From: Oscillospiraceae bacterium
Lineage (GTDB): Bacteria; Bacillota; Clostridia; Oscillospirales; Acutalibacteraceae
Direction: 5' to 3'
NCBI GenBank assembly: GCA_029227055.1
Contig: JAQXZE010000061.1
Span: 1 to 33,154, forward strand
DNA length: 33,154 nt
In this document: positions 234-7,827 of the stretch, piece by piece
Layout: each line of letters starts with the position of its first letter
Numbering within the stretch: the stretch's first letter is position 1
The notes under the pieces: generated by a model
Seen by the model: the letters and a program-made list of their open reading frames with translations, nothing else
Database searches by the model: none
What the model was told of the DNA's origin: nothing
Translations under genes and position numbers: made by a program

Positions 234-797
234 CTAATCTTTAAGACCTTCTATAAAATCTGATAACAACTTTCCAGCAAACAATTGGTTGCTACAAATA
301 TTCTCCAATTTCTTTTCGTCAAAATTCTCTTTGTCTTTGAATTTTGATTTTAAAAATTGTTTTAAAGCATTTGCTCCGCATAAAATTTGAAACTCATATT
401 GCAATTCGTTTTGGTTGTTGAATTGTTGATTAAATTCTTTTATTAAACCAGAAAGTACTTTTTTTATATCAGACTTATGTAATGCTTTACCAGTTCTAAA
501 CCAAAGATTCAATAAAAACAATGCTTCTTGTTGTCGTTCTTCAGTTCTTAATGCTTCGTCTAATTCCAAATCATCGGTGGCATCAACTAATAAATCGTAT
601 AAAAATATGTCTCTGAAATATCTTGCAGCTTCTTCAACATTCTCCGCAAAAAGAACTTGATGTTCTCCAACCTCAAATGGAGTTGACATTTTAAAAGAAG
701 TATAAATAAAAATGTCATCAGGCTTAGCAAAGGTTAAATCTCGCATAAAACTAGAGTGGTTACTTTTCCAACTTTTAAAATTATTGCAGTCTTTCAT
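234..797 (-). CDS. Unknown 187-aa protein, last gene of the DarT/NADAR operon
   Basis: I do not recognise a family. The protein is soluble-looking and charged, with no signal peptide or membrane segment. The first ~60 residues look mixed alpha/beta; from about residue 75 it is mostly amphipathic helix rich in Glu, Gln, Lys and Asn. Translation starts at ATG 797 after a GGAAG Shine-Dalgarno, 26 nt beyond the stop of the NADAR gene, so it is co-transcribed as the final cistron before the terminator at 164-219. Position suggests an accessory or regulatory partner of the toxin-antitoxin pair, perhaps an extra antitoxin component, but that is inference from context alone. Confidence 0.7.
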   Translation of the reverse strand: MKDCNNFKSWKSNHSSFMRDLTFAKPDDIFIYTSFKMSTPFEVGEHQVLFAENVEEAARYFRDIFLYDLLVDATDDLELDEALRTEERQQEALFLLNLWFRTGKALHKSDIKKVLSGLIKEFNQQFNNQNELQYEFQILCGANALKQFLKSKFKDKENFDEKKLENICSNQLFAGKLLSDFIEGLKD

Positions 798-823: not shown

Positions 824-1507
824 TCAAAAAAATGAAATTTGAACTCCTTCAGTAATTTTATTTTCATCTGAATATACTATTTCTTTAAATGCGTCCTTGT
901 TCTTTAATGCATCCGACAACAAGCCTTTTTTTAATAAAGATACGCAAATCGCAGCGGATCTTGCCTGACAGTTAATTGATTTTTCTGGATTAAAAGCAAT
1001 ATCAGTAAAGGCGTTATATTCAGATAATTTTGTAAGCAGTTCCTCATTTTGTGAAACAGCATTAACATATAACCAATCATAAAAAAATGTTTTAGGATTT
1101 ATGGGAAATTCATTACCTAAGAGAACAAATTTCATTAATCGTCCGCTATTCGACAGTCTTTCGTCTCTTTTTGAAACTATCGACGGACTATAAAATAAAT
1201 CGGTATATGGCCCACCATTTTCAAAAACTTTACTGGACTGAAAGGCAGATTCAACCGTCGTTTTTTTACCATCGATTGAAACGCCCAAATTAAAGGCACT
1301 TAATTTCGTGCCAAGTTCAGTAAGTGAATAGCGTGAAATTTCTAAGACCTTAACTTCAGGTTGCAGTTTTTTGATTGCAGCATGCAAACTATCAACGGAT
1401 TTTTGCTTTTGTCGAATAGCAAATCCATTGAAATACGTAAACTGCATATTTATTTCTTTAAAATAAGGTTTGCCTTCACTAATTAAAAAGGTAGGTCTTC
1501 TTGCCAT
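824..1507 (-). CDS. darG: NADAR-type antitoxin of a DarT1-like system
   Basis: Likely the antitoxin that reverses or blocks DNA ADP-ribosylation by the adjacent DarT. The 227-aa protein matches, by recall, the NADAR family found beside DarT1 toxins: an MARRPTF start, FNGFAIRQKQKS near residues 27-38, the ENGGPYTDL motif near 96-104, SGRL near 121, FYDWLYVNA near 142-150 and a SINCQARSAA segment near 177-186. NADAR enzymes are reported to remove ADP-ribose from guanine bases; antitoxins of DarTG2 systems use a macrodomain instead. The start ATG lies inside the end of darT (25-nt overlap), the usual sign of translational coupling. The 187-aa unknown follows 26 nt later. Confidence is good for the family, lower for substrate specificity. 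Confidence 0.82.
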   Translation of the reverse strand: MARRPTFLISEGKPYFKEINMQFTYFNGFAIRQKQKSVDSLHAAIKKLQPEVKVLEISRYSLTELGTKLSAFNLGVSIDGKKTTVESAFQSSKVFENGGPYTDLFYSPSIVSKRDERLSNSGRLMKFVLLGNEFPINPKTFFYDWLYVNAVSQNEELLTKLSEYNAFTDIAFNPEKSINCQARSAAICVSLLKKGLLSDALKNKDAFKEIVYSDENKITEGVQISFF

Positions 1508-2223
1508 ACGGTATTATCCTCTTTCGTTAATACATTGTGGTTTTGATAATAGGCATAATCTTTTCTATAAGTAAAAAATTTTCTGTCCACAGCAAATAAA
1601 GGCGAATGATATTTTTCAAAATAATAAGAAAAATCACTATTATTATCAAAATATATTTTTTTGAAATATTCAATTGGTATTGGTCCTTTAAGCAAAATCT
1701 CAGCCTGTGGTTCAGTAGTATAATACAAAGGTAAATCTCTGTCTTTTCTCATGTTTTCACAAGCAAACATATACTCCAAATGTTTGAGGTCTGGACCTAT
1801 CGCTTTATCCGGAGCCTTGGAAGATGCATTTACATTGCAAAAAAGTCTTTCATCAATATCAAATTTTTTTATTATAGAAGGGTCTATTTCAATTATGATA
1901 AAGCGTTGTTTCATTTCTTGCTCTTTTTTATATCTCATTTGATAATTTGGAAATGAAATCGACAATGAAATGAAATCTTTTAAATTATCATATCTCGTTG
2001 CATCTGTATACTGATATTTTATGCCATATCTATCACAGTAATTTCTCGAACAAATGCCATTCTTCAAAATACTATCCAAATTGCAAATCGGTGAAAAATG
2101 CAAGAACGAAGCAACATTTCTACTATCAAGGTAAGTTTTGATTTCATCTATATCGTCATTTCGAAGCTTGACTGTTTTATATATAGGATTTTTGTTTTTT
2201 AATTCATATTCACTTATATTCAT
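1483..2223 (-). CDS. darT: DarT-family DNA ADP-ribosyltransferase toxin
   Basis: Toxin that transfers ADP-ribose from NAD+ to bases in single-stranded DNA, stalling replication; DarTG systems act in phage defence. The 246-aa protein has the DarT layout: N-terminal LHFSPICNLDSIL (about 41-53, His42) for NAD binding, TRYDNL with Arg77, a conserved ISLSISFPNYQMRYK segment (85-99), and the C-terminal TEPQAEILLKGPIP motif (170-183) in which Glu175 corresponds to the catalytic Glu. No key residue appears missing. GGAGG lies 6-10 nt upstream of ATG 2223. Its NADAR partner overlaps the 3' end by 25 nt. The C-terminus reads QEDLPF, resembling the acidic tip of bacterial SSB. Residue equivalences are by eye. 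Confidence 0.88.
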   Translation of the reverse strand: MNISEYELKNKNPIYKTVKLRNDDIDEIKTYLDSRNVASFLHFSPICNLDSILKNGICSRNYCDRYGIKYQYTDATRYDNLKDFISLSISFPNYQMRYKKEQEMKQRFIIIEIDPSIIKKFDIDERLFCNVNASSKAPDKAIGPDLKHLEYMFACENMRKDRDLPLYYTTEPQAEILLKGPIPIEYFKKIYFDNNSDFSYYFEKYHSPLFAVDRKFFTYRKDYAYYQNHNVLTKEDNTVWQEDLPF

Positions 2224-2234
2224 CTTTTCTCCTC

Positions 2235-2420
2235 CTAAAAAGGCAATTCTTCTTCCTCTAAAGACAATCCTTTCTCTATTAATTCCTCAAGCAACTCTTT
2301 ACCAATTAATTCTTGACGAGTTATTCTATCAAAATTTATTGCAAAATTATCATCATATACATCCATATATAAAAATTTAGCTTCTGACAACCATTCTTCT
2401 AAGCAATCATTCTTTTCCAT
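2235..2420 (-). CDS. Small acidic protein (61 aa) with an SSB-like C-terminal tip
   Basis: Family not recognised. It is strongly acidic, with a Glu-rich helical second half (about residues 36-52) and the C-terminus SLEEEELPF. The last residues resemble the acidic tip of bacterial single-stranded-DNA-binding protein (DDDLPF/DDDIPF), which docks SSB-interacting enzymes. The gene is real: an AAGGAG Shine-Dalgarno sits 7 nt before ATG 2420, it fits between its neighbours with a 36-nt gap upstream and 11 nt to darT, and it is on the operon strand. It may compete for SSB partners or recruit replication or repair proteins; this is inference from the tail alone. Confidence 0.75.
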   Translation of the reverse strand: MEKNDCLEEWLSEAKFLYMDVYDDNFAINFDRITRQELIGKELLEELIEKGLSLEEEELPF

Positions 2421-2456: not shown

Positions 2457-3464
2457 TTAATACCAAAAATATTTTTCATCACTTGTTTCTAATTCACGGA
2501 ATTTTTCATATTCGTCGCAATATTCTTCCATGCTGTCATAAAGTCTATATTTATCTGAATAATCTGCTTCGTCATCATCATAACCACTAGAATCATAAAT
2601 ATATTCAGGATATGAGGCCATATCCTCAGCTTCTAAATCCGCATAATATTGCTCTATTTTTCTAAAAAAGTCATTGTTTCGTTCAGACTTTGAATAACGA
2701 AAATATTTGCAAATAATAGCTTTATCTATCAAAACTGTTGTTTTGTTATCTTCTATAGTTATTTTTGCAATAACGATGCCATCCATATATTTTCCTGTGT
2801 TGTATAAAAGTTTTTTTGTTGTTGAAATGAAATTAAAACTTTTTCTTGTTTCCGGATTGTATAGTGTAGCCTTTGCGCCCTCAGTTTTTATGTAGTGTGT
2901 ACCTGGGAAACGCACAGGAATATAAAATGATAAGTTTTCACTATTCTTGAACAATTCAAAAACTTTAAATGCGCTGATTGGTTGAATAAAAAGGTTAAAC
3001 AAATCACTTTTAGACGTATAGTGCAATTTTTCATATTTTTCTTTCAGTTTAAACCAATTTGTTGTACCTAAAACCTCATGTTTCCCTTTTATTCTCAAAA
3101 CATTAAATAATTTTATACTTATTTTACCCGCTTGCACAAATACATTTTCGCAAAGTTCAACAGGCACTTTAATTACCATTTTTGATTTTAGTTTTGCACA
3201 ATCCTCACTGTAAGAACAAAGACCATAGTTTTTACCGTGATTATCAATTAAAGAAACCACTTTGCCCGTAAAAACATCTAAACCTACAATCTTCAAATAT
3301 TTACGACCTTTTTGTTCACATATTCTATTGGATATAATTGCGATGTTTCTAATATCTTGACCGTTTAAGTCCGAAAGAAAAACATCATAGTATTTACGCA
3401 CTGTGTCATATTGTTCTTCATCAATACCAGTGGGCACGAATTCCTCATAATATAAATCATTCAT
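2457..3464 (-). CDS. 335-aa protein, possibly dual-OB-like, with acidic tail
   Basis: Weakly recognised. Residues ~38-100 contain IAIISNRICEQKGRKYLKI followed by a VGLDVFTGKVVSLI strand pattern, which recalls proteins annotated as dual OB-domain proteins (short beta strands, a GxxxxTGxxV turn). The middle is beta-rich and basic with several aromatic residues, compatible with nucleic-acid binding. Residues ~275-335 are extremely acidic and Tyr-rich. There is no signal peptide or membrane segment. It lies 14 nt after the smr-like gene and 36 nt before the 61-aa gene, in one operon. The OB assignment is a hypothesis; the gene itself is well supported by length, spacing and strand. Confidence 0.72.
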   Translation of the reverse strand: MNDLYYEEFVPTGIDEEQYDTVRKYYDVFLSDLNGQDIRNIAIISNRICEQKGRKYLKIVGLDVFTGKVVSLIDNHGKNYGLCSYSEDCAKLKSKMVIKVPVELCENVFVQAGKISIKLFNVLRIKGKHEVLGTTNWFKLKEKYEKLHYTSKSDLFNLFIQPISAFKVFELFKNSENLSFYIPVRFPGTHYIKTEGAKATLYNPETRKSFNFISTTKKLLYNTGKYMDGIVIAKITIEDNKTTVLIDKAIICKYFRYSKSERNNDFFRKIEQYYADLEAEDMASYPEYIYDSSGYDDDEADYSDKYRLYDSMEEYCDEYEKFRELETSDEKYFWY

Positions 3465-3478
3465 TCAATTATATCCTT

Positions 3479-3736
3479 TCATTGTGCCATTATCAAAACG
3501 GTTATTCCTTGATTCAAACTTAAATACTTGCGCGCAACTTTTTTACACTTAAACTCGTTACGTACCATTTGTTGCAATTCGGTTCCTCTATGATATCCAT
3601 GAATTACAACAATCTCTTTGACATCACTCGGCGCTAATAACACGCTTTTCGTGAGAACATCTTTTGCCATTACAACGGATAACTTGTGTAAATCTACATA
3701 CATAATTTCGTTTTCTTTACATGTTGAATAATACAT
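3479..3736 (-). CDS. Small stand-alone Smr-domain protein (85 aa)
   Basis: An Smr (small MutS-related) domain almost alone. VDLHKLS (14-20) is the conserved N-terminal (L/V)DLH motif, IVVIHGYHRGTEL (42-54) is the central HGxxxGT loop, and the end ITVLIMA is the last strand. Smr domains in MutS2 and related proteins bind and nick or cleave DNA or RNA. It is the first cistron of the operon, with AGGAG 7 nt before ATG 3736, and is directly preceded by the structured leader at 3770-3914. Small Smr proteins of this length occur widely in Clostridia, often near mobile or defence genes; target unknown. Confidence 0.8.
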   Translation of the reverse strand: MYYSTCKENEIMYVDLHKLSVVMAKDVLTKSVLLAPSDVKEIVVIHGYHRGTELQQMVRNEFKCKKVARKYLSLNQGITVLIMAQ

Positions 3737-3748
3737 ATAAATGCTCCT

Positions 3749-3776
3749 CTATTTCTTTTTCTGGGAAATAGAAAAA
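3749..3776 (-). promoter_or_regulatory. Two mutually exclusive hairpins before the smr-like ribosome site
   Basis: On the minus strand CTATTTC/GAAATAG (3765-3771 with 3749-3755) forms a perfect 7-bp hairpin ending one base before the AGGAG at 3744-3748. Alternatively TTTTTCT/AGAAAAA (3770-3776 with 3756-3762) forms a different perfect 7-bp hairpin. They share bases and cannot coexist. The second also uses the U-run after the closing helix of the leader RNA, so the pair could link leader folding to termination or initiation. Both stems are A/T-rich and weak. Confidence 0.45.
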
Positions 3777-3914
3777 CGCCTGTAGAAAAATATCTATTAA
3801 TGAAAGTTACAACAAACCAAGCCTTGATTTCCCATTCAAGACCTAATTATATTATCCGAGTCTAACAGATAATTGTTGTAACAAACAAAAATAAATAGCT
3901 TTCTACAAGCGTTT
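3770..3914 (-). ncRNA. Candidate structured leader RNA or small ncRNA (~145 nt), unknown class
   Basis: Read on the minus strand, bases 3914-3900 pair with 3788-3774 as a continuous 15-bp helix (AAACGC..TGTAGAAA) whose only non-Watson-Crick pair is U-G; as plus-strand RNA it would be an A-C mismatch, so the fold favours minus-strand RNA. Nested inside are CUAUUUA/UAAUAG (3892-3898 with 3794-3799), a perfect 10-bp helix GTTACAACAA/TTGTTGTAAC (3806-3815 with 3873-3882), and two small hairpins (3852-3872 with UUAUC/GAUAA; 3823-3840 with CUUGA/UCAAG). The promoter at 3920-3948 places the first transcribed base at about 3914, the start of the closing helix. A U5 run follows the 3' strand. I do not recognise an Rfam family. 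Confidence 0.6.
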
Positions 3915-3919
3915 GTATT

Positions 3920-3948
3920 ATGATAACACATTCTAAATACTTTGTCAA
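3920..3948 (-). promoter_or_regulatory. Sigma-A type promoter for the leader RNA and island operon
   Basis: Minus strand: -35 TTGACA (3943-3948), 17-bp spacer, -10 TATCAT (3920-3925). The -35 is perfect and the -10 differs from TATAAT at one position. Predicted transcription start is about 3913-3914, exactly at the first base of the leader's closing helix. No other convincing promoter is seen within the operon. Confidence 0.8.
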
Positions 3949-4087
3949 TATTTATTTAAATTTTTATAAATCCATCGATTTTGATTTCCTTTTCTTTTTT
4001 AATTATTACGCTATCCGGAATAGTTATACTTTTAGTGTTTTGCCAGATAGACCCATAAAAGACAATAAAAACATACATTTTTATATT

Positions 4088-4145
4088 TGTGCCGTAGGCA
4101 CACCAAGATTATTCATTTTTAATTATTCATCATTCATTATTCATT
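4088..4145. repeat. AT-rich intergenic repeat (GCC-hairpin plus ATTCAT repeats)
   Basis: A short perfect palindrome TGTGCC-GTA-GGCACA (4088-4102) is followed by imperfect direct repeats of ATTCAT/ATTATTCAT (4111-4145). It marks the right side of the AT-rich island just before the spoIVA terminator. Such sequences are frequent non-coding repeats in Clostridia. The rest of 3949-4087 is AT-rich with nothing else I can support. Confidence 0.5.
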
Positions 4146-4155
4146 AAACAAAAAC

Positions 4156-4174
4156 GGGAGGCTGAACGCCTCCC
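4156..4174 (-). terminator. spoIVA intrinsic terminator
   Basis: Perfect 7-bp stem GGGAGGC/GCCTCCC with a 5-nt loop. Read on the minus strand it is followed by GTTTTTGTTT, a good U-run. It lies 18 bases beyond the spoIVA stop. Confidence 0.9.
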
Positions 4175-4192
4175 ATACAAAGTTATTTAAAT

Positions 4193-5671
4193 CTACAGAA
4201 TTATACAAACAAGTCCGTTACAGCCGTCATTTATTACGCGCTCGATTGTTTCCTGAACCCTCATTCGAGCATCAACCGGCATTCTTGCAAGCTTGGTATG
4301 AAGTCCCTCGTTTACAAGCTCGTGAAGTGATTTTCCGAATATATTGGAATCCCAAATCTTAACGGGGTCTTCTTCAAATTCGCTAAGTAAATACATAATA
4401 AGGTCTTCCGACTGCTTTTCACTTCCCACAATCGGACTTACTTCGGTAGTAATATTAGCCTTCATAAGATGTATTGATGGTGCCGACGCTTTAAGCCGCA
4501 CGCCGTATCTTCCGCCCTGCTTTACAATTTCTGGCTCTTCTAAGGTTAGCTCCTCAATAGACGGCATAACTATTCCGTAGCCCGTTGCCTCTACCTCGTC
4601 GAGCGCACCTTTAATCCGCTCGTAATCCTTTTTCATAACCGCGAGACTTGAAATACAGCTCATAAGCTCCTGTTCGTCACTTATAACAAGACCCGTAGTT
4701 TCTGCAAGAATCTTATAAAAGAGCTCGGGATTAATTTCCACCTTTACCTTTGCCTTGCCCTGCCCTAAATCTATACTTTCAATAGATACATTTTCTATGT
4801 TTTCGTTTTCCTTAAACTCAGCATTAAATCCTGTTATATCTCTTATATGTTTTATATTCTCTGCCGAGTGGCGTATAGCTTCTGTAATATTTGACCGCAA
4901 CCAATGTTCAACGCTCAAAGAGTTTACCCACTTAGGATAATTAAAGCATATCTCTTTTACAGGGAATTCAAATAAAATCTTAGAGAGAATATTTTTTATA
5001 TCGTTTTCATTGAGGTCAAGACAGTTTACGGGAATAACAGGAACGCTGTATTTTAAGGAAAGCTCTTCCGAGAGTGCATAAGCCGACTCGCTCTCGGGGT
5101 ACATACAGTTTAAAAGCACTATAAAGGGCTTATTGATTTGCCTTAGCTCGTCAACTACACGCTCTTCTGCCTCGGCGTATTCCTCTCTAGGAATATCACT
5201 GATACTGCCGTCTGTTGTAATTACAAGACCTATTGTAGAATGTTCGGTTATAACCTTTCTAGTCCCGATTTCAGCCGCCATATTAAAGGGAATTGGCTCA
5301 TCGTACCAAGGGGTCATAACCATTCTAGGTTGGTCGCCCTCTATGTAACCTAGGGAACTCGGAACAATATAGCCTACGCAGTCTATAAGCCGTACATTCA
5401 TTTTCGCCGAATTATCTATGCTGATTTCTACCGCCTTTTCGGGTATGAATTTGGGCTCGGTTGTCATAATTGTTCTGCCTGACGACGCCTGAGGAAGCTC
5501 ATCATTAGCGCGTTCTCTTTCGTATTCCTCAGCTATATTCGGCATAACAAGTTTATCCATAAACTGCTTTATAAATGTAGATTTGCCTGTGCGGACCGGT
5601 CCTACTATTCCAACATAAATATCTCCGCCGGTCCTAGCCGAAATATCGCTATATATGTTTGCGTTTGTCAT
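4193..5671 (-). CDS. spoIVA: Stage IV sporulation protein A, spore coat morphogenetic ATPase
   Basis: SpoIVA polymerises on the forespore outer membrane after ATP hydrolysis and forms the basement layer of the spore coat. The 492-aa product equals the usual length. Near the N-terminus is ISARTGGDIYVGIVGPVRTG; the Walker A GPVRTGKS spans 24-31 with Lys30, the position known from B. subtilis. DELPQASSGRTIMTTEPKF and RLIDCVGY (Walker B region) follow, and the conserved C-terminal region ends GCNGLVCIIL. The frame stays open to a GTG at 5686, but that GTG and its next codons are the GGAGGAAG Shine-Dalgarno of ATG 5671, so 5671 is the start. A near-consensus sigma-E promoter lies upstream. Monocistronic, with its own terminator. 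Confidence 0.97.
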   Translation of the reverse strand: MTNANIYSDISARTGGDIYVGIVGPVRTGKSTFIKQFMDKLVMPNIAEEYERERANDELPQASSGRTIMTTEPKFIPEKAVEISIDNSAKMNVRLIDCVGYIVPSSLGYIEGDQPRMVMTPWYDEPIPFNMAAEIGTRKVITEHSTIGLVITTDGSISDIPREEYAEAEERVVDELRQINKPFIVLLNCMYPESESAYALSEELSLKYSVPVIPVNCLDLNENDIKNILSKILFEFPVKEICFNYPKWVNSLSVEHWLRSNITEAIRHSAENIKHIRDITGFNAEFKENENIENVSIESIDLGQGKAKVKVEINPELFYKILAETTGLVISDEQELMSCISSLAVMKKDYERIKGALDEVEATGYGIVMPSIEELTLEEPEIVKQGGRYGVRLKASAPSIHLMKANITTEVSPIVGSEKQSEDLIMYLLSEFEEDPVKIWDSNIFGKSLHELVNEGLHTKLARMPVDARMRVQETIERVINDGCNGLVCIIL

Positions 5672-5707
5672 AAAAGCTTCCTCCACTTAAAAAACTTCTT
5701 TTGTATA

Positions 5708-5736: not shown

Positions 5737-5741
5737 CAACC

Positions 5742-5963
5742 TTTTTGATAATGATTATAGAATGTCGAAACGACTATTTTCGTTTCGACAAGCCGATTTT
5801 ATCGGCTTTCGCATAATTAAATTTCAAAAAATTTAATTATGCTCTACATTCATTGCAATGGATTAGTCCAAATTTTTATGAAAAATTTGGCACAATATCA
5901 AAGATATTGTGTCGAAATAGCGTGAATTAATGCTATTTCGATTTACTATAACCATTATAAAAA
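5742..5963. repeat. Multi-hairpin element: consecutive palindromes inside a terminal inverted repeat
   Basis: Ends 5742-5760 and 5946-5963 are inverted repeats with one mismatch and one extra base. Inside stand perfect stems one after another: 10 bp (5764-5773/5780-5789), 8 bp (5790-5797/5801-5808), 14 bp (5811-5824/5829-5842), a small palindrome CATTGCAATG (5851-5860), 10 bp (5868-5877/5881-5890), 9 bp (5891-5899/5903-5911) and 10 bp (5912-5921/5932-5941). The second stem abuts the first, the sixth abuts the fifth, and the seventh abuts the sixth. No open frame is inside. It looks like a non-autonomous mobile element (MITE-like) or a structured extragenic repeat. The remaining gap to 6213 holds a weak promoter and an operator-like palindrome. 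Confidence 0.8.
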
Positions 5964-6117: not shown

Positions 6118-6146
6118 TTGTTGCTTGTAATTTCTTTCCAGATAAT
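6118..6146 (+). promoter_or_regulatory. Possible promoter of the HTH-GlmM operon
   Basis: TTGTTG (6118-6123), 17-bp spacer, GATAAT (6141-6146). The -10 matches five of six consensus positions, the -35 four. It is the best candidate upstream of ATG 6214; transcription would begin near 6153 and include the palindrome at 6184-6200. Confidence 0.4.
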
Positions 6147-6183
6147 GTATGATGATGATGATAGATGTGTTTTGATTAAATTC

Positions 6184-6200
6184 AAGAAATCTAATTTCTT
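6184..6200. promoter_or_regulatory. Operator-like palindrome before the HTH-GlmM gene
   Basis: AAGAAAT-CTA-ATTTCTT, a perfect 7-bp inverted repeat with a 3-bp centre, lies directly before the AGGAGG at 6203-6208. XRE-family dimers bind sites of this size, so autorepression by the fused HTH is possible. It could equally form an RNA hairpin beside the ribosome site. Confidence 0.35.
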
Positions 6201-6213
6201 TCAGGAGGATATT

Positions 6214-7827
6214 ATGACAATAGGTGAAAAAATTACCCATTTAAGAAATGCTAAGGGAATATCGCAAGAAGCTTTAGCAGATAAGCTTTCGGTATCACGC
6301 CAATCTGTTTCAAAATGGGAAATGGACCAATCCCAGCCTCAGATTGATAAAATTTTACTTCTTTGCGAGATTTTCAACATATCCGCTAACGAGTTGCTGT
6401 ATGACAAAATATCAATTAACACAGCAAATACACCGATTAAAAACAAATATTTCGGTACCGACGGTTTTCGCGGTGAGGCAAACTTAAATCTTACCTCTAT
6501 GCAGGCATACAAGGTCGGTAGATTTTTGGGTTGGTACTACTCTTCAAAGCTTTCGGGCTGTAATCAAGCAGGATACAGACCTAAAATCGTAATCGGCAAG
6601 GACACACGCCGTTCAAGTTATATGCTCGAATATTCAATCGTTGCAGGTATTACCGCATCGGGTGCAGATGCATATATGCTCCATGTTACAACCACACCCA
6701 GCGTTTCGTTTGTCACCCGACAGGATGAATTTGATTGCGGTATTATGATAACTGCTTCCCACAATCCTTTTTATGATAACGGAATTAAGGTTATTAACAG
6801 ATACGGCGAAAAGCTTGACGACCATACAACCTCTCTTATAGAAGCATACATAGACGGCAACTTAGACCTTTTAGGAGTTCAGGGAGATGATTTACCTCTA
6901 GCCCACAGAGAGCGAATCGGATGCATTGTGGACTATGTTTCAGGCAGAAACAGATATGTAGGTTATCTGATTTCGGTTGCTTCAAATTCATACAAAAATT
7001 TGAGAATAGGTCTTGACTGTGCAAACGGCGCTTCTTGGATGATTGCAAAGGCTGTTTTTGATGCACTTGGTGCTCAAACTGTAGTAATCGGTGCCGAGCC
7101 TGACGGTCTTAATGTTAATAACGGTTGCGGCTCAACTCATATCGAAAAGCTTTGCGCACTTGTAAAAGAACATCATCTAGATGTCGGTTTTGCCTTTGAC
7201 GGTGACACCGACCGTTGTTTAGCTGTTGACGAAAAGGGTAATATCGTAGACGGTGACGGAATAATGTATATCCTTGCAAATCGCTTTAAATCACGAGGTA
7301 TGCTTAACGGAAATACCGTTGTAGCAACTGTTATGTCCAACAGCGGTTTCTTTGCATCACTAAAGAAAGCCGGAATTGAATGTGTACAAACTCAGGTTGG
7401 CGACCGTTTTGTTTATGAGGTTATGCAAAACAAGGATTACAGTCTTGGCGGTGAGCAATCAGGTCATATTATTTTAAAGAAGTACGCCACCACAGGTGAC
7501 GGACTTTTAACAGCCATTATGTTAGCCGAAGAAATGTGCGACCGCAAATCTGTTTTGAGCAAATTAGTTGAACCTGTAACGCTCTACCCTCAGCATCTCA
7601 TCAACCTTAGGGTTAAAGATAAGTCAGCTGTTATGAATGACGCCGAGGTTCAAAAAGAACTCAAAAAGGTTGAAAAGCTTATAAACGGAAACGGCAGAGC
7701 ACTTTTAAGACCCAGCGGTACTGAACCTGTTATCCGCGTAATGTTAGAATGTGAAACAATAGAGCTGTGCGAAGAATATGCAAATATGATTGCTTCGCTA
7801 ATTAGAGAAAGAGGCCATTGTGAATAA
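6214..7827 (+). CDS. XRE-family HTH domain fused to a GlmM-like phosphoglucosamine mutase
   Basis: A 537-aa fusion. Residues ~4-62 are a lambda-repressor-type HTH (GISQEALADKLSVSRQSVSK, then a typical PQIDKILLLCEIFNISANEL helix). After a short linker, residues 78-537 form a complete alpha-D-phosphohexomutase: KYFGTDGFRGEAN, active-site Ser182 in TASHNP, metal loop DGDTDR (329-334; the paralog has DGDADR), sugar loop GGEQSGH (412-418) and the phosphate-binding RPSGTEPVIRV end. The catalytic set looks intact, so it should convert GlcN-6-P to GlcN-1-P or be a sugar-phosphate-sensing regulator. The start is ATG 6214 with AGGAGG 5-10 nt upstream; an in-frame extension to 6118 has no Shine-Dalgarno. 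The next gene overlaps by 8 nt. A closely similar unfused glmM lies at 28239-29636. Confidence 0.9.
   Translation: MTIGEKITHLRNAKGISQEALADKLSVSRQSVSKWEMDQSQPQIDKILLLCEIFNISANELLYDKISINTANTPIKNKYFGTDGFRGEANLNLTSMQAYKVGRFLGWYYSSKLSGCNQAGYRPKIVIGKDTRRSSYMLEYSIVAGITASGADAYMLHVTTTPSVSFVTRQDEFDCGIMITASHNPFYDNGIKVINRYGEKLDDHTTSLIEAYIDGNLDLLGVQGDDLPLAHRERIGCIVDYVSGRNRYVGYLISVASNSYKNLRIGLDCANGASWMIAKAVFDALGAQTVVIGAEPDGLNVNNGCGSTHIEKLCALVKEHHLDVGFAFDGDTDRCLAVDEKGNIVDGDGIMYILANRFKSRGMLNGNTVVATVMSNSGFFASLKKAGIECVQTQVGDRFVYEVMQNKDYSLGGEQSGHIILKKYATTGDGLLTAIMLAEEMCDRKSVLSKLVEPVTLYPQHLINLRVKDKSAVMNDAEVQKELKKVEKLINGNGRALLRPSGTEPVIRVMLECETIELCEEYANMIASLIRERGHCE

Follow-up and report, generated by a model that had tools for sequence, protein, structure and literature searches.

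A strongly folded, strand-biased leader RNA of no catalogued family and its probable role as expression gate of a DarT1-NADAR operon

In this work we describe a strongly folded and strand-biased RNA, without a match among catalogued families, that heads a six-gene DarT1-NADAR operon of an Oscillospiraceae bacterium and is most likely an expression gate of that operon. The window, i.e., the whole stretch of DNA analysed, is 33,154 nucleotides long (contig JAQXZE010000061.1), and the features discussed below are collected in Table 1. We read the element as a cis-acting 5′ leader, attenuator and translation gate in one, that keeps the operon at low output, and we give this reading a probability somewhat short of one half (roughly 0.45). 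A predicted helix, which can hide the Shine-Dalgarno (SD) sequence belonging to the first gene and draws on the same U-run as the RNA, makes action in cis the simplest reading; this helix is new here, having been overlooked in the first-pass annotation of the stretch.

Results

Fold of the junction RNA

The RNA read from the minus strand folds into the same three-way junction under all four energy parameter sets. Its closing stem is made of parts of 16, 8, 2 and 9/10 bp, after which comes the junction with hairpins of 8 and 13 bp, and G.U pairs account for 8 of the 56 pairs in total. The first-pass annotation had placed a structured RNA at 3770-3914 of this strand, and that observation is confirmed as real: the outer helix has the 15 consecutive pairs that were claimed for it (3914-3900 with 3774-3788, followed by a G.U as the 16th pair), and the lone non-Watson-Crick pair among these 15 is, as had been described, a U.G (3908/3780). 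The inner helices had been recognised correctly and measured less so. The one given as 6 bp exists with 8 bp (3897-3890/3791-3798, one pair being U.G), the 10-bp one is present (3882-3873/3806-3815) and retains nine of its ten pairs in the minimum-energy fold, where the tenth A goes to a hairpin, and of the ‘two small hairpins’, both of which exist, the second is, at 13 bp, not small. The U-run reported after the 3′ strand is there too; it reads UUUUUCUAUUU, is interrupted, and its first three U are able to join the closing helix.

That the structure is more than a random leader also holds. The region 3760-3920 of the minus strand folds at -58.3 kcal/mol, against -26.2 ± 3.7 in 200 dinucleotide shuffles (z -8.65), none of which matches its stability, and 1000 shuffles of the exact RNA stretch average -22.9 ± 3.2 with a minimum of -33.5. 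The plus strand of the same region reaches only -35.8 kcal/mol, since the G.U pairs of the minus strand turn into A.C mismatches there. Over the exact stretch the minus strand is favoured by 23.9 kcal/mol, a difference above that of all 1000 shuffles (null -10.2 ± 3.4), which bears out the earlier description of a minus-strand-biased element heading the operon. This strand bias is the best substitute at hand for covariation and speaks for an RNA that is transcribed from the minus strand.

How unusual such a combination is within the genome was judged from 11,729 windows of 149 nt, taken on both strands from the analysed stretch and 20 others (357 kb of ~1.5 Mb). As many as 180 of them fold at least 2.8 standard deviations better than predicted from their GC, so that strength by itself is not unique to the junction RNA; the strongest include a palindromic element and stretches in which tRNA genes lie. 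Thirteen of the 180, at 11 places, have in addition a strand bias of at least 17 kcal, and two of these places overlap entries of Rfam, one of them a THF riboswitch/5S region and the other a T-box. When a residual of -4.5 or lower is combined with a bias of at least 17 kcal, two of the 11,729 windows are left, one being the junction RNA and the other (in L148) spanning a terminator and a gene leader. It is thus strength combined with strand bias that sets the junction RNA apart. RNase P, the lysine riboswitch and a second T-box in the surveyed stretches fail these cut-offs, which are therefore not a detector of structured RNA.

The same figures bear on whether this is a DNA element (a MITE, a cruciform or an operator-like inverted repeat) that plays no part as RNA, which we consider highly improbable. 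The region is an inverted repeat with 42-nt arms that are 79% complementary, and palindromic elements of DNA type do occur in this genome, e.g., at 5740-5950 of the window. Unlike the palindrome at 5761-5909, whose strands fold alike (-50.6 and -50.3), the junction RNA carries its 23.9 kcal strand bias; moreover its arms begin at the predicted transcription start. The DNA is present in a single copy in its own genome, and from the 69 other genus genomes the DNA search returned no counterpart, short matches only (best E 3e-4, a 46-base piece outside the RNA). A match to a transposon end had been named as a possible objection to the RNA, and in none of these genomes is there a transposon-like second copy.

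Table 1. Features of the leader and of the operon that follows it (positions in the window)
Feature	Position	Strand	Basis
Promoter-like site, extended -10: TTGACA, 17 nt, TATCAT	3920..3948	minus	11/12 consensus matches; consensus match only
Structured leader RNA, three-way junction	3774..3914	minus	folding and shuffles; four energy parameter sets
U-rich strand GUUUUUCUAUUUC, shared by a possible terminator (as tail) and the predicted SD-hiding helix (as 5′ strand)	3765..3777	minus	folding
3′ strand of predicted SD-hiding helix, GAAAUAGAGGAGC, with Shine-Dalgarno AGGAG of the Smr gene	3743..3755	minus	folding
First gene: Smr-like protein of 85 aa, small and stand-alone	3479..3736	minus	PF01713, E=0.0078, below cut-off
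335-aa protein, no family; acidic tyrosine-rich C-terminus	2457..3464	minus	sequence relatives only
61-aa acidic protein ending EEEELPF (SSB-tail-like)	2235..2420	minus	sequence
DarT1-type ADP-ribosyltransferase, 246 aa, ending WQEDLPF	1483..2223	minus	PF14487, 6.2e-14
NADAR antitoxin, DarT1-associated subfamily, 227 aa	824..1507	minus	PF22397, 8.5e-86
187-aa protein, last gene	234..797	minus	no match of weight

Predicted start and possible terminator

The promoter-like site stands in register with the helix, as the first-pass annotation had it. Its -10 is preceded by TG, and a start 6-7 nt past the -10 would fall on 3914/3913, where the pairing of the closing helix begins; from 3914 to the Smr start codon at 3736 there are 178 nt. 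Over an 800-base region the promoter scan finds 5 such sites where shuffles give 5.3 ± 2.0, so the scan alone proves nothing. Just upstream of the site, at 4060-4150, lies an intergenic repeat with relatives at two other places of the same genome (L140 and L143).

Between the RNA and smr, the helix and UUUUUCUAUUU form a putative terminator. The terminator scan, which accepts loops of 3-8 nt only, did not flag it.

Predicted pairing of the Shine-Dalgarno sequence

The first bases of GUUUUUCUAUUUC double as the 3′ base of the closing helix. Further on, the same U-rich strand is predicted to pair with GAAAUAGAGGAGC in a 13-bp helix that covers the whole SD of the Smr gene; when the upstream sequence is shuffled, 12 of 1000 trials reach this length. 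The hairpin on its own has -10.1 kcal/mol, and 5 of 1000 shuffles are equally stable. The assignments of start codon and SD are sound because the start methionine of the Smr-like protein is invariant in 11 aligned sequences.

Among 169 ORFs with an SD, picked mechanically from the same genome, that of Smr has the least accessible SD when the region from -60 to +30 is folded (unpaired 0.007, the next being 0.008; values below 0.05 are seen in 8 of the 169). With the whole leader folded it is only partly hidden, at a mean of 0.21 unpaired and rank 45 of 169. The start codon, unpaired at 0.001, ranks third of 169 in the whole leader and fourth locally, and this burial is the stronger statistic; a switch acting on it is a prediction from the folding model.

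The base of the closing helix (AAACGC/GCGUUU) competes with the GUUUUUCUAUUUC/GAAAUAGAGGAGC helix for common bases. If it is forced to form, the last three SD bases become unpaired at 0.94-1.0, and if the 5′ arm is deleted in silico they fall to 0-0.01. The two competing forms lie 1.4 kcal/mol apart (-70.8 vs -72.2); three of the four parameter sets put the SD-helix form first and one the closing-helix form, a split to be expected of two nearly equal states. Depending on the set, the last three SD bases are unpaired at anything from 0.07-0.22 to 0.76-0.84. Such an effect of the first 14 nt on the SD is not rare: a rise in exposure of this size is seen in 10 of the 169 genes (Smr included), and a change of this size in 21. 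For the SD and the start codon to open jointly, 8.6-12.5 kcal/mol would be needed whichever state the leader is in, so that formation of the closing helix would not by itself release the start codon.

Two other candidates for this region were tried and dropped. An RNA thermometer was rejected on a merely gradual climb of SD exposure from 15 to 42 C, and a leader peptide within the RNA after judgement by eye.

The operon and its neighbourhood

The genes follow one another in the order of Table 1, and the defence-type cassette proposed earlier is indeed an operon of toxin-antitoxin type, with DarT1 adjacent to NADAR. The Smr-like protein matches PF01713 at E=0.0078 and 16.8 bits, below the cut-off of 25.7, and all 11 aligned sequences of its kind match the Smr profile at E ≤ 0.1 (best 9.7e-5). 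Besides the start methionine, D15-L16-H17 and H46-G47 are invariant among them, residues that we take to be those of a nuclease. For the 335-aa protein there is no Pfam, NCBIfam or PDB match of weight, and its AlphaFold model is poor (pLDDT 47). The DuOB family was presumed to be a possible relative; in the comparison nothing matched, and the controls were equally silent. The sole PDB match of the ADP-ribosyltransferase up to E 1 is E. coli C7 DarT1 (8baq, 7.5e-19). The ends WQEDLPF of this protein and EEEELPF of the 61-aa one resemble DDDLPF, the acidic tip of the SSB that this genome encodes, and a toxin that modifies ssDNA and has an SSB-like docking tail is an idea worth testing.

Relatives of the 335-aa protein number 15 besides itself in the protein database, 14 of them full-length with 60-76% identity and one (P0016) a fusion of its front with a NADAR end, which suggests, going by the fused sequence, that the same gene neighbourhood exists elsewhere. 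The Smr-like protein is represented there by 10 clusters, two of them without a source label, and has no relative among viral contigs. Homologues of the 335-aa protein are absent from 294 other genomes of the order, and from genome, viral, plasmid and phage collections in which the records nearest to the window's genome may be missing.

Of 249 other genomes of the family, 68 have small smr genes, with 35-49% identity over the 29 loci that were compared, and NADAR genes occur in 6 of 199; these six NADAR loci have no match to the DarT, Smr or 335-aa protein of the window at E ≤ 1. DarT genes occur in 5 of 299; since four of the five adjoin a macrodomain gene, the DarT2 arrangement, they are not a like-for-like control. 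None of the five DarT proteins, at least four of which are macrodomain-linked, ends in LPF. In the openly accessible literature we found nothing that joins DarT, toxin-antitoxin and an Smr domain.

The operon is flanked by a copy of the tmRNA 3′ end (Rfam match 1-96) and by spoIVA (4193-5686). Positions 1-99 of the window reproduce, base for base, 99 bp of the tmRNA 3′ end (G000:C55:742-840); the gene is intact, with the tag DNKTVALAA, on another contig beside a phage holin gene. On this account the tmRNA end is probably the attachment site of a prophage or island, the alternative being a strain mixture. In the genus relatives compared, a different sequence follows spoIVA. On the far side of spoIVA, between it and the next gene, an array of near-perfect palindromes occupies 5740-5950, with ~-50 kcal/mol on both strands; a comparison with 324 kb of this genome shows no further copy. 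Further on, at 6118-7827, an HTH_3 DNA-binding domain is fused in a single open frame to a phosphoglucomutase/phosphomannomutase whose four domains are all present.

Searches for the leader elsewhere

An RNA of this kind might have been general to small smr genes, as the first-pass annotation had expected of homologous loci, and this found no support. Upstream regions of 59 smr loci (30 on GTDB contigs and 29 of the 68 family matches, the others yielding no locus, with the best of up to three windows each, and five apparently being one genome counted twice) were folded, and 16 of them were read. A few fold strongly, to judge by eye because of the preceding gene's terminator or of stems unrelated to the RNA. 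An RNA model (R1), weak since it was built from two copies of one sequence, returned over the 59 smr, 6 NADAR and 5 DarT loci its own two strands and three short matches (E 0.031-3.8), the best of which is not beside an smr gene. By folding and by RNA model alike, then, the leader is absent from the 59 loci. With the 349 family and 391 class genomes, own genome included, the same model gave its two own strands and three weak matches (E 0.025-0.07), i.e., nothing convincing in 348 and 390 other genomes. Ten stretches of viral contigs holding the exact pattern of the 10-bp helix were folded, and none is like the RNA by eye. In another genome, a multi-branched structure of -105.7 kcal/mol precedes a small smr gene (L029, ~1960-2070), where the RNA model has no match.

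The absence at these 59 loci means that Smr proteins as such need no leader of this kind, which speaks against the element being an autoregulatory site only, i.e., a site on its own mRNA that an operon protein would bind, as in the leaders of ribosomal proteins, and that takes no part in termination. A structured leader beside a gene for a fold that acts on nucleic acids, and the competition for the SD, are what such a site would look like; we regard it as quite improbable.

The RNA could also be one already catalogued, a known riboswitch, T-box or other, as its position and its switch-like geometry might suggest. In the window the tmRNA fragment alone passes an Rfam gathering score, and the 10 sub-threshold matches in 3400-4200 have wcaG (E 0.091) as the best, whilst the same search does find T-boxes and THF and lysine riboswitches elsewhere in the genome. 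The first-pass annotation, which saw no obvious known class here, was right in this respect, and the chance that the leader belongs to one is very slight.

Discussion

The arrangement recalls several leaders and toxin systems of known biology, and it is instructive to see how far each likeness goes. In AbiD1 of Lactococcus lactis, as described in the accessible portion of PMC2661086, a stem-loop of -9.1 kcal/mol just after the terminator may sequester poly-U and RBS, and a phage protein raises translation. Here too there is the leader of a defence gene, a poly-U and a stem-loop able to pair the poly-U with the RBS, although the pairing is a prediction, partly populated in the whole leader, and the terminator is putative. 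The two differ in the gene concerned and in size, the translation-initiation region of AbiD1 having 76 nt whereas here a 141-nt three-way junction stands before the hairpin; and activation by a phage protein is, according to the same portion, shown for AbiD1.

AbiF/RCd22, from a Clostridioides difficile prophage, comprises, in the part of PMC12373285 available, a SigA-type promoter, a structured RNA of 88-132 nt, a terminator and read-through into the toxin gene, with RCd22 acting in cis and in trans and contacting the AbiF protein. The start lies 168 nt before the ATG there and 178 nt here. In contrast, a search of Rfam finds the abiF motif (RF03085) nowhere in the window (up to E 10 in 3400-4200), and the Pfam scan finds no Abi_2/AbiF protein among the six operon proteins. 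By analogy, the leader would thus be wired like those of AbiD1 and AbiF/RCd22 while being a member of neither.

The type III toxin-antitoxin system ToxIN, as far as the partial account of it goes, shares with our operon an RNA gene before the gene for a possible endoribonuclease. ToxI, however, is made of repeats, whereas 3774-3914 has no direct repeat at a minimum length of 15, and no operon protein matches the ToxN family. The closest kinship in protein content is with DarTG1, an ADP-ribosyltransferase of the DarT1 branch next to a DarT1-associated NADAR; in the section of PMC11543638 consulted, DarT1-NADAR is an established toxin-antitoxin pair acting by reversible guanine ADP-ribosylation. 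Set against DarTG1 as that section presents it, our operon has four further genes, a structured leader, and SSB-like tails on DarT and the 61-aa protein.

These comparisons give some weight to a role in trans, in which a ~145-nt RNA would bind the Smr or the 335-aa protein as antitoxin, cofactor or guide, much as RCd22 does with AbiF and ToxI with ToxN. The first-pass annotation had ideas of this sort, in that the RNA could belong to the defence cassette as its RNA part or be something on which the Smr protein acts. A promoter-like site, then a discrete RNA with a U-run, then a gene is the arrangement of AbiF/RCd22 as far as it is described; the structure goes beyond that of an ordinary leader; DLH and HG are conserved in the Smr-type protein that the first gene codes for; and the Smr and 335-aa genes seem linked, judging by the equal longest contigs of P0004/P0017 and P0011/P0018 (2953 and 3608). 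All the same we hold a partner in trans to be somewhat unlikely. The operon already has a complete toxin-antitoxin pair in DarT1 and NADAR, the RNA lacks the abiF motif or any other Rfam RNA as well as the direct repeats of ToxI, and the SD pairing binds the element to the mRNA in cis.

We therefore return to the cis-acting leader, whose computed elements (the fold, its strand bias, the SD helix, the buried start codon and the two competing folds) would work together as follows, the transcription start, termination, control of translation and identity of the trigger being the conjectural parts. Transcription would begin at the first base of the junction RNA, and the closing helix with the U-run would act as a leaky terminator, so that many transcripts end as an RNA of ~145-150 nt. 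In those that read through, the U-run would pair with the Smr SD and the start codon would lie in a further hairpin, and translation would be poor. If the junction RNA were stabilised, whether by an operon protein such as Smr or the 335-aa one or by a protein of phage origin, the SD would become free and expression would increase, whilst opening or removal of the 5′ arm would close it. It counts against a gate that the large multi-branched structure exceeds what a simple one needs.

It is hard to refrain from a bolder idea, rather unlikely as we judge it, in which the ~145-nt RNA would belong to a ribonucleoprotein defence module of a new kind and be antitoxin, sensor and expression switch at once. 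The Smr or the 335-aa protein would bind this RNA, and perhaps cut it, and would be kept inactive by it; loss of the RNA when phage infects would both free the protein and shift the pairing of the SD, and with it the control of the DarT1-NADAR operon.

In conclusion, the DarT1-NADAR operon of this genome is headed by a strongly folded, strand-biased leader without a catalogued match, which is most likely its expression gate. Leader RNAs govern a defence gene in AbiD1 and AbiF, with a phage protein as the trigger in AbiD1, in so far as the parts of the two sources go. Should conserved pairing be shown, the present leader would represent a new class of structured RNA. If our interpretation is correct, a poised leader would answer both how the DarT1 toxin is kept quiet and what wakes it, and this RNA may be a sort of safety catch, or an alarm, for the operon that it leads.
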